The translations under genes were made by a program, and so were the position numbers. A DNA stretch of 45,190 bases from Kocuria tytonicola (GTDB lineage: Bacteria; Actinomycetota; Actinomycetes; Actinomycetales; Micrococcaceae): NCBI RefSeq assembly GCF_003687455.1, contig NZ_PHOA01000006.1, positions 1 through 45,190 on the forward strand. The letters are read 5' to 3'. The notes beneath the pieces were generated by a model. The model was not told the origin of the DNA and did not search any database. It was given only the letters and a program-made list of their open reading frames with translations. Shown here one piece after another: positions 8,223 to 40,130 of this stretch (the first letter of the stretch is position 1; each line of letters begins with the position of its first letter).

Positions 8223-8451
8223 TCCACACCCGGCGCTGCTCGTGACGAGCACCGTCCGGGCCCGCACCACGCGGGCCGCCCGCGGGCAGATCCCCGCGGC
8301 ACCACGTACCAGGAACCACAGCAGCTGTGCAGCCGCGCCGCATGTCGCGGTCCTCGACAGTGGCCTCCGCAACGCGAGAGCGGTGCGAGGGCTTCGATCG
8401 AAGACCGGTGTGTTGCGCGGGCTGCGCACCACGAAGAAACGGAGGTGACCC

Positions 8452-37560: not shown

Positions 37561-38013
37561 TCAGCCGTAGACGGGGCCGGTGAACTTCTCGCCCGGTCCC
37601 GCACCGGGGGCGTCCGGGAACGGGGAGGCCTCGCGGAACGCGAGCTGGAGGGACTTCAGGCCGTCGCGCAGCGGCCCGGCGTGCTGGGCCCCGATCTCCG
37701 GGGCGGCGGCCGTGACGAATCCGGCCAGAGCGGTGATGAGCTTGCGGGCCTCGTCAAGGTCCTTCAGCTCCTCCGCGTCCTCACCGGCCGCGAGCCCGCA
37801 CTTCACGGCGGCGGCGCTCATGAGGTGCACCGCCGCGGTGGTGATGACCTCCACCGCCGGCACCTCGGCGATGTCGCGCATCTGGGCGCTGACCACCTCG
37901 ACCGTCTCGTCGGGCAGGTCCTCGGGCGCGGTGGCCGACGGCCCACCGTGGGCGTCCCGGGTGGAGGGGGCGGAGGGGAACTCGAAGCGCTCGGAGCGCG
38001 GCTGATCGGACAT
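37561..38013 (-). CDS. DUF1844 domain protein
   Basis: A 150-residue protein of unknown function, commonly encoded divergently from infC in actinobacteria. The core (about 55-130) runs AVEVITTAAVHLMSAAAV, then EDAEELKDLDEARKLITAL. It is largely helical with an acidic Pro/Ser-rich lead. The ATG at 38013 lies exactly 6 nt from a TACAGT box, so it should be leaderless; a longer frame to 38139 is not supported. Confidence 0.88.
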   Translation of the reverse strand: MSDQPRSERFEFPSAPSTRDAHGGPSATAPEDLPDETVEVVSAQMRDIAEVPAVEVITTAAVHLMSAAAVKCGLAAGEDAEELKDLDEARKLITALAGFVTAAAPEIGAQHAGPLRDGLKSLQLAFREASPFPDAPGAGPGEKFTGPVYG

Positions 38014-38019
38014 GCTCCC

Positions 38020-38025
38020 ACTGTA
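38020..38025 (-). promoter_or_regulatory. Putative leaderless -10 box for the DUF1844 gene
   Basis: TACAGT on the minus strand, exactly 6 nt before the ATG at 38013. It diverges from the infC promoter about 70 nt away. Confidence 0.6.
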
Positions 38026-38093
38026 GAACAGGGGAGCCGAGGCCACAGAGCAGTCCGGGCGGCGCCCGGTGGCGCCACGGTGCGGGGATGCGC

Positions 38094-38099
38094 TACCAT
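38094..38099 (+). promoter_or_regulatory. Putative -10 box for the infC operon
   Basis: TACCAT, with +1 expected near 38106. The whole 322-nt gene-free stretch 38014-38335 holds this promoter, the divergent DUF1844 promoter and the infC leader. Confidence 0.55.
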
Positions 38100-38105
38100 G
38101 GCTGG

Positions 38106-38335
38106 CAGTGTGCAAGCGGAGGAGACTCCCACCCGTCACCGCCCGTTCCGGACCAGTTCCGAGGACACCAGGTGCTCGGGTCAGAGACCGAACGGTCGTG
38201 CCGGGTTGCCGGGGCAGATCGAGTCATCGGTCCCAGTGTGGTTTCCAGCCTCCGCTCGCGCGTGCCGCAGCGGAGGTTTTTTCGTTGCGGTCCCGTCCGA
38301 ACCACGGGGAAACCCACGAACATCAGGAGATCGGC
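38106..38335 (+). ncRNA. infC leader with attenuator (L20-leader-like candidate)
   Basis: Roughly 230 nt of structured leader. AGCGGAGG at 38115-38122 is an exact copy of the 3' arm of the terminator at 38269-38276, so it can pair with the 5' arm (38249-38256) as an antiterminator. The same segment can fold locally as GGAG-GAGA-CTCC (38118-38129), a helix with a GNRA-type loop. Smaller helices lie at 38159-38179 and 38186-38197. In Bacillus the infC-rpmI-rplT operon is controlled by L20 through leader termination; that L20 acts here is inference. Confidence 0.6.
38249..38282 (+). terminator. Intrinsic terminator inside the infC leader
   Basis: CCTCCGCT (38249-38256) pairs perfectly with AGCGGAGG (38269-38276), with three more inner pairs, and is followed at once by TTTTTT (38277-38282). 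It is the only hairpin plus T-tract of this quality that I see in the window, and it sits between the infC promoter and its start codon. Confidence 0.82.
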
Positions 38336-39331
38336 ATTAGCGAGCCACGCATCAATGACAGAATCCGCGTCCCGGAAGTCCGCCTGGTCGGACCTGGCGG
38401 CGAGCAGGTCGGCATCGTGCGCGTCCAGGACGCGCTGCGGCTGGCCCGTGAATCGGATCTCGATCTGGTCGAGGTCGCACCGAACGCCAAGCCCCCGGTG
38501 GCCAAGCTCATGGATTTCGGCAAGTACAAGTACGAGGCCGCGGTCAAGGCACGTGAGTCCCGCAAGAACCAGGCCAACACGGTCCTCAAGGAAGTGCGTT
38601 TCCGGCTGAAGATCGACACGCACGACTACGAGACCAAGGTGGGCCACGCCAAGCGCTTCCTCTCCGCGGGGGACAAGGTCAAGGCCATGATCCAGTTCCG
38701 CGGTCGTGAGCAGCAGCGCCCCGAGATGGGCGTCCGTCTGCTCGAGCGGCTCGCGAACGACGTCGCCGAGGTCGGTGCCGTGGAGACCACCCCCCGCGTG
38801 GACGGCCGCAACATGGTCATGGTCATCGGCCCTCTGAAGAACAAGGCCGAGGCGCGTGCGGAAGCACGCAAGCAGGCGCAGCGCGAGAAGTCCCAGGCGG
38901 ACAGCGCGCGCAAGCAGCGGGTGGACACCTCGTCCGCCGAGTCCGTGACCCAGTCCATCGGGGACGCGTTCCCGGAGGAGCTGCGCCGGGCGGCGTCGGC
39001 ACCCGAGGCGGAGGCCCCCGCGACCGAGGCGCCGGTGGAGAGCGCTCCGCTGGCCGCCGAGGACGAGGTCAAGGCCACGGTCGCTCCCGCGAGCGAGGGG
39101 ACGCAGGACGCCGGGCAGCCCGAGCCGGTGGAGGCGTCCGAGGCCGTCGCGGAGAAGGCGCCCGCCGAGCAGGAGGCACCGGCGGCGACGTCGTCGGCCA
39201 AGCCCGTTGCCGACAAGCCTGCCGCGAGCAAGCCGGCGGCGAAGCCCGCCGCGAGCAAGCCTGCCCCGGCCAAGCCGGCGGCGTCCGCGCCGAAGCCCGG
39301 GGCGCCCAAGCCCGGGCCCGCCAAGAAGTAG
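38336..39331 (+). CDS. infC: Translation initiation factor IF-3 with long C-terminal tail; probable ATT start
   Basis: Binds the 30S subunit and checks start-codon choice. The IF3_N domain (residues 2-75: [18 protein letters not shown], and [12 protein letters not shown]) and IF3_C domain (about 80-170: [23 protein letters not shown]) are complete. A tail of about 155 residues follows, first charged and then a [12 protein letters not shown]-type repeat, making 331 residues against roughly 180-220 in common IF-3s. No ATG/GTG/TTG lies at the homology start; ATT at 38336 follows AGGAG (38325-38329) by 6 nt, matching the known rare-start habit of infC. An in-frame GTG at 38108 would need translation through the terminator and is less likely. 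Confidence 0.93.
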
Positions 39332-39450: not shown

Positions 39451-39648
39451 ATGCCGAAGATGAAGACCCACAGCGGAGCCAAGAAGCGCTTCAAGCTCAC
39501 CGGCTCGGGCAAGGTCAAGCGCCAGCAGGCCAACCGCCGCCACTACCTGGAGCACAAGTCCTCCCGCCTGACCCGCCGTCTGGCGAGCGACCAGATCGTC
39601 TCCACCCCGGGCGAGGCCAAGGCCATCAAGCGGATGCTGGGCAAGTAA
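39451..39648 (+). CDS. rpmI: Ribosomal protein L35
   Basis: Small basic protein of the 50S subunit. The 65-residue product has the family sequence [20 protein letters not shown] and the C-terminal IKRMLGK. GAAGGAGA precedes the ATG. It is the middle gene of the conserved infC-rpmI-rplT operon. Confidence 0.98.
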
Positions 39649-39743: not shown

Positions 39744-40130
39744 GTGGCACGTGTGAAGCGGGCAGTCAACGCCCACAAGAAGCGTCGGGAAGTCCTGGAG
39801 AAGGCGTCGGGCTACCGCGGTCAGCGTTCGCGCCTGTACCGCAAGGCCAAGGAGCAGATGCTCCACTCGTACACCTACTCGTACAACGACCGCCGGAAGA
39901 AGAAGGGCGACTTCCGTCGGCTGTGGATCCAGCGCATCAACGCCGCGTCCCGCGCCAACGGCCTGACCTACAACCGCTTCATCCAGGGCCTGAAGGCCGC
40001 TGAGGTCGAGGTGGACCGTCGCATGCTGGCCGAGCTGGCCGTCAACGACGAGAACGCGTTCGCGGCCCTGGTCCAGGTGGCCAAGGACGCGCTGCCGGAG
40101 GACACCTCCGCGCCCCGCGCCGCCGCCTGA
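39744..40130 (+). CDS. rplT: Ribosomal protein L20
   Basis: Early 50S assembly protein and, in other bacteria, repressor of its own operon. The 128-residue product begins [19 protein letters not shown] and has [17 protein letters not shown] and [17 protein letters not shown]. The GTG at 39744 follows GAGGAG (39731-39736) by 7 nt; an in-frame ATG-like start 15 nt earlier overlaps that site and is rejected. A 6-bp hairpin (39705-39710 with 39716-39721) lies in its 95-nt leader. It is a candidate ligand of the infC leader. Confidence 0.97.

Follow-up and report, generated by a model that had tools for sequence, protein, structure and literature searches.

Organization of the infC Leader

The window, that is, the whole stretch of 45,190 nucleotides analysed here from contig NZ_PHOA01000006.1 of Kocuria tytonicola, harbors the genes of initiation factor IF3 and of ribosomal proteins L35 and L20 in the order infC-rpmI-rplT, and the leader under study sits 5' of this L20-encoding operon (Table 1). 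By IF3, the closest named relatives are K. salsicia and K. varians (98%). The IF3 protein bears a long Ala/Pro/Lys-rich C-terminal extension past its conserved part (about 38880-39331, +). An open reading frame starting at GTG 38069 reads without a stop through the leader into infC (38069-39331, +), so that automatic annotation may put the infC start too far upstream, and a similar misannotation of the infC start has been reported in Streptomyces (PMC5472188). Shortly 5' of the infC ribosome-binding site lies a GGGGAAACCCAC box (38306-38317, +), which recurs in 17 of 193 leader rows from the same genus, Rothia, and a few others, with the window entering this count twice. Elsewhere in the window, an Actino-pnp RNA (RF01688) was recorded at 8346-8409 (+) with 50 bits, above the Rfam gathering score.

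Table 1. Features of the infC leader and its operon in the window
Feature	Positions	Strand	Basis
Predicted promoter -10 element TACCAT for the infC operon	38094..38099	+	Fixed spacing to GCAAG in same-genus leaders
Conserved core	38109..38184	+	Covariance model R2, E 1.3e-9 in own genome, the window sequence itself being in the training set
Switching strand A, GCAAGCGGAGG	38112..38122	+	Pairs locally (P1) or with terminator 5' arm
P1 hairpin GGAG-GAGA-CUCC, predicted anti-antiterminator, within the core	38118..38129	+	Anchor-based pairing count
P2, ACCCG (38131-38135) / CGGGU (38177-38181)	38131..38181	+	Aligned sequences, folding
Terminator 5' arm CCTCCGCT, able to pair with strand A	38249..38256	+	Sequence, pairing tests
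Possible read-through hairpin (uncertain), 38264-38269 with 38286-38291	38264..38291	+	Swap tests
Terminator 3' arm AGCGGAGG	38269..38276	+	Sequence reading
T6 tract, predicted termination point	38277..38282	+	Sequence reading
infC (IF3), start codon ATT 38336-38338	38336..39331	+	ORF translation
rpmI (L35)	39451..39648	+	ORF translation
rplT (L20), proposed regulator	39744..40130	+	ORF translation

The original prediction had described, between the promoter and the infC start, a hairpin with the 8-bp stem CCTCCGCT/AGCGGAGG followed by six Ts, together with an exact copy of its 3' arm at 38115-38122, 154 nt 5' of that arm, and both were confirmed by reading of the sequence. The copy belongs to strand A, which also contains an AA dimer (38114-38115), and the antiterminator pairing of the terminator 5' arm with this strand reaches 38259. 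The P2 helix encloses a variable stem formed by CACC (38137-38140) and GGUG (38171-38174), while the possible read-through hairpin would loop out both the terminator 3' arm and the T tract. In all 27 same-genus leaders, own genome included, a TA...T hexamer stands at a constant distance 5' of GCAAG, which indicates that the switching strand is probably located at the very 5' end of the transcript; the predicted -10 position thus agrees with the earlier placement of the copy near +1.

Folding of the Leader RNA

Strand A (taken as 13 nt) pairs better with the terminator 5' arm than with any of 200 dinucleotide-shuffled versions of the leader downstream of it, with a z of -4.4, the p value lying at the 0.005 floor of the test. 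The preferred fold changes as the modelled RNA is lengthened. For the RNA ending at 38262, the antiterminator fold has -71.5 kcal/mol against -65.6 with the local helix forced; for the RNA ending at 38282, the local helix together with the terminator reaches -76.8 kcal/mol against -74.1 with the antiterminator forced; and for the RNA ending at 38300, the antiterminator returns at -89.0 kcal/mol against -81.2 with the local helix and the terminator forced. This calculated order of antiterminator, terminator, and antiterminator fits a switch, and it implies that a ligand keeping P1 closed during the emergence of the terminator would turn the operon off. A simple terminator scanner reported no site in the leader; the 12 nt between the 8-nt arms exceed its loop limit of 3-8 nt.

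Conservation of the Core in infC Leaders

At the start of the leader, the core motif GCAAGYGGAG-N-CUCCCACC..GGU is recognized, and its distribution was followed in 137 leader rows selected by infC homology alone, which were gathered from genus and family infC scans plus 79 of 80 named contigs (L103, with no upstream DNA, was omitted) and in which the window appears twice; the rows amount to 129 distinct sequences, and the core is present in 123. The loose pattern AAGN-GGAG-loop-CUCC-C-ACC occurs in 130 of these 137 leaders, and the strict pattern, in which CGGGU is also required, in 120; by chance, shuffled leaders yielded them in 140 and 1 of 2740 cases, respectively. The core is missing in seven leaders with infC present, namely, three from Nesterenkonia (L113, L115, and L116) and four from one further genus, g12 (L052, L053, L055, and L058); when six g12 genomes were searched with the model, nothing scored below E 0.01 and nothing fell at infC. 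In an enlarged set, the core was found in 186 of 193 leaders, a set that is not unbiased, being partly picked via model match (17 leaders of the phylum draw and most later additions). Judged by pattern, 190 of the 193 leaders have an infC start codon of ATC (111) or ATT (79). Filtering of the 186 core-bearing leaders gave the 117 non-redundant leaders used below.

The comparison of Micrococcaceae infC leaders that had been proposed with the original prediction revealed that the upstream 8-mer and the T-tract hairpin both recur. The earlier interpretation is to be widened on this and the following evidence, which supports an element found across the Actinomycetes with a structured core (P1 and P2) beyond the duplicated 8-mer.

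Support for the P1 and P2 Helices

The pairing of P1 was counted with anchors that are independent of pairing: the tetranucleotide that follows AAGN was matched to the one preceding C-ACC. Among the 117 non-redundant leaders, 457 of 468 cells are paired, while 2000 shuffles of the 3' rows gave 441 ± 1.5 paired cells and never more than 447. Double-sided changes were seen at pairs 2, 3, and 4, that is, at three of the four pairs, so that the local helix with the GAGA loop, which had been predicted for the upstream copy, is borne out as a covarying structure. The outer three pairs of P2 are invariant, partly because the selection patterns asked for ACC, and for each of the inner two, both bases are altered in three of the 54 sequences.

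In the 54 aligned sequences, the whole structure is 84.6% paired and slid partners reach 55.3% or less, with pair counts over the structural alignment leaning towards pairing; the inner stem within P2, as aligned, is only 60% paired. One of the five alignment measures, the number of further pair types, was reached by 77 of 500 shuffles.

Terminator and Antiterminator in Relatives

A terminator finder, which is blind to the upstream strand, reported a match in 84 of the 117 leaders and in 215 of 585 shuffles; with a threshold of -14 kcal/mol for the hairpin preceding the T tract, 80 of 117 leaders and 47 of 585 shuffles were left. These shuffle rates imply that single weak matches of the finder mean little; in the 33 leaders where it found nothing, some are misses of the finder. 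For leaders in which the finder gave no terminator, masking of the ribosome-binding site was considered as the switch and is unsupported, with 3 of 33 reaching p <= 0.05.

The strand-A shuffle test gave p <= 0.05 in 52 of the 117 leaders (about 6 expected), 22 of them at the floor, and the other 65 lay above p 0.05. In a swap test with 84 leaders, the pairing of strand A with its own 5' arm had -17.66 kcal/mol against -14.79 ± 0.28 for swapped partners, a value reached in 0 of 5000 permutations; in 35 dissimilar leaders, 0 of 10000 permutations matched the own antiterminator pairing, and kinship among leaders can inflate both results. The earlier claim that the upstream copy pairs with the terminator 5' arm gains from these tests the signature of coevolution. 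The possible read-through helix, C:E, likewise gave 0/5000 and 0/10000. Among the control pairings, A:C was reached by 638 of 10000 permutations, B:E by 145, and A:E by none, the last of which weakens C:E more than the antiterminator, because the own-swap difference of the antiterminator is larger (3.0 kcal/mol against 1.4 for the A:E control); indirect complementarity may be the cause of the A:E result. From the sequences, the terminator 5' arm is thus predicted to have a mutually exclusive upstream partner, the feature by which an attenuator is recognized.

Distribution across the Actinomycetes

Two covariance models were used for wider searches. Model R1, constructed from 57 Micrococcales sequences, gave 28 loci in 26 genomes out of a phylum-wide draw of 197; 19 of these loci precede infC (the window and a same-family genome included), while the remaining nine, all with E >0.001, do not. 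Seventeen of these loci carry IF3, L35, and L20, two carry IF3 and L35 up to the end of the locus, and the nine weak ones carry none of them.

Model R2, based on 54 sequences, matched 176 of 246 Actinomycetes genomes at E <= 0.01. Among the matches listed, the R2 match lies 126-302 nt before infC on the same strand in 87 of the 87 genomes that have both places, at least six of which supplied R2 training sequences; of the 150 R2 places taken, 63 had no infC place among the matches listed and were not joined. In the phylum draw, R2 matched 27 of 197 genomes, with infC adjoining in 18 class members and six others and not in three. IF3, L35, and L20 were all present in 8 of 12 further R2 loci checked, and a second, weak R2 match (L165) in the own genome lies away from infC. 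The model also misses real cases, since, of eleven R2-negative genomes taken, all ten that were read upstream of infC have the loose-pattern core (the eleventh, L200, was a wrong stretch and was dropped), and four of these leaders belong to one family (f72) carrying AAGCGGGGGTTCGCCCTCCACC. Inspection of the matches listed by eye revealed no genome in which infC and rplT are separated, an arrangement that could tell L20 from IF3 or L35, the instances in which the two genes fall on two contigs (e.g., G394 and G367) being contig-end cases.

Relation to Scr1601 and Known Leaders

The Rfam scan that had been suggested with the original prediction returned no family match for the leader: no family was obtained at E <= 10 in 37900-38500 and none at the leader by gathering score. 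The Rfam models of L20 leaders, such as L20_leader (RF00558) for the L20-interacting leader of B. subtilis, gave no match at the leader of the window either.

In four of four Streptomyces-like infC leaders (L146, L147, L150, and L153), a designation taken from the Rfam family name, the family Scr1601 (RF02830) scores above its gathering score and extends over the core as far as the T tract, where it ends. An initial Rfam scan of 20 source loci had given Scr1601 at the gathering score in one (L146). The cut-off was reached in 25 of 41 relatives of one Streptomyces-like genome, all of one family, and adjacency to infC was examined in a minority of these 25. Scr1601 is accordingly regarded as a homologous RNA with the same core and the same end at the T tract, which differs in being classed as an sRNA gene ("Gene; sRNA" in Rfam) rather than as a leader and in having no match in the Kocuria window. 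The S. coelicolor scr1601 has been reported as an ncRNA with confirmed expression, and its S. ambofaciens homologue was placed in a UTR, outside the predicted sRNAs (PMC8388888).

A literature search of limited coverage found no paper presenting an actinobacterial infC or L20 attenuator. By term match, "infC" is absent from the main text of the Streptomyces papers PMC4681348, PMC4895711, PMC3765725, and PMC8914203, and none of the 20 rows in Table 1 of PMC7247131 concerns infC, its actinobacterial rows being those of L17 and L31. The earlier statement that such an architecture was not known to be described is upheld as far as an attenuator is concerned and needs amendment in that the Streptomyces homologue is already filed in Rfam as the sRNA Scr1601.

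Proposed Mechanism and Ligand

We infer, with a probability of roughly 0.6, that this leader is an L20-type transcription attenuator of the infC-rpmI-rplT operon with L20 as the most likely ligand. The sequence itself, its conservation and covariation, and the swap tests speak for the core, the P1 hairpin, the terminator with its alternative pairing, and the placement before infC, whereas L20 as ligand, a binding that favors termination, and the working of the switch in the cell belong to the proposed model. The 5' core RNA, composed of the AA dimer, the P1 hairpin, and the P2 helix, would most likely be bound by L20. Without free L20, GCAAGCGGAGG would pair with CCTCCGCT about 130 nt downstream, by which the terminator would be blocked and the operon transcribed; with free L20, the core would be held closed with P1 formed, leaving CCTCCGCT free for AGCGGAGG, and transcription would end at the T tract, a feedback by which the protein probably restrains its own synthesis.

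L20 is the favored ligand in view of its control of this operon in other bacteria and of the presence of the AA dimer and the two adjacent G-C pairs reported for L20 leaders. In B. subtilis, L20 regulates infC-rpmI-rplT by leader termination (PMC10931766 and PMC6097659), and in E. coli it regulates rpmI-rplT (PMC10931766); an AA dimer and two G-C pairs in succession are described as common to L20 leaders (PMC7247131, section 9). Both features occur in 54 of 54 aligned cores, a set picked by patterns or a model that asked for AAG and ACC. The likeness to L20 leaders is in part a product of this selection; it covers a short stretch and was assessed visually. The 23S stretches of two other genomes were set beside the core by eye, and a search for the 23S site in the own genome gave no match. 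Since no Rfam family matches at the leader, the link to L20 is one that we infer.

Compared with the B. subtilis L20 leader, the operon, the leader position, and the logic of a terminator and an alternative structure are the same, and its AA dimer and G-C pairs are present here; the sequence and the scaffold differ, as indicated by the missing Rfam match. The Deltaproteobacterial L20 r-leader candidate, likened here by its description, comes from another lineage with one regulated gene listed, and represents a different scaffold for which retention of the AA dimer and the two G-C pairs has been proposed (PMC7247131).

Alternative Explanations

The same attenuator might respond to a different product of the operon or of ribosome assembly (IF3 or L35), or to an unrelated ligand, instead of L20, a possibility that we take seriously yet consider doubtful. 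It draws on the indirect nature of the ligand assignment, with no Rfam leader model matching, and on the finding that the core adjoins infC in the loci holding the operon (19/28 and 8/12); since infC stands beside the core in all operon-holding loci, infC and rplT are inseparable by position. Arguing against it, IF3 regulates its own translation through the ATC/ATT start, and in Streptomyces it already has its own control via an ATC start codon (PMC5472188), L20 is the regulator in both E. coli (rpmI-rplT) and B. subtilis (PMC10931766), and the AA dimer with two C-G pairs fits L20 leaders. A broader version, rated as unlikely, takes the core as a widespread actinobacterial sensor of another ribosome-assembly product (IF3, L35, or something new), of which the Scr1601-type sRNAs would be the terminated products.

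The sRNA typing of Scr1601 in Rfam and the confirmed expression of the S. coelicolor ncRNA (PMC8388888) would also suit a 5' RNA that is mainly a trans-acting sRNA, whose terminator is a constitutive end and from which infC is reached by read-through only. This explanation appears improbable: coevolution of strand A with the terminator 5' arm would be needless for a constitutive terminator, the core stands before infC in 87 of 87 genomes among the matches listed, and in S. ambofaciens the homologue was assigned to a UTR instead of being predicted as an sRNA (PMC8388888). Even less credence is given to an explanation of the conserved 5' sequence as the coding region of a leader peptide or as a simple determinant of RNA stability, for which an SD-like GGAGG near the 5' end might speak, since P1 covaries as a helix; the leader peptide was rejected because the loop length of P1 varies across leaders, so that no reading frame is kept across it.

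Implications

If the L20-type attenuator is real, many Actinomycetes, from the Micrococcales to the Streptomyces-like genomes, would run infC-rpmI-rplT by one RNA switch, whose sole entry in Rfam is an orphan Streptomyces sRNA and which was partly visible before in that form. It would also add a further r-protein leader scaffold for infC-rpmI-rplT, implying repeated invention of the same control, and would make the function of Scr1601 directly testable.
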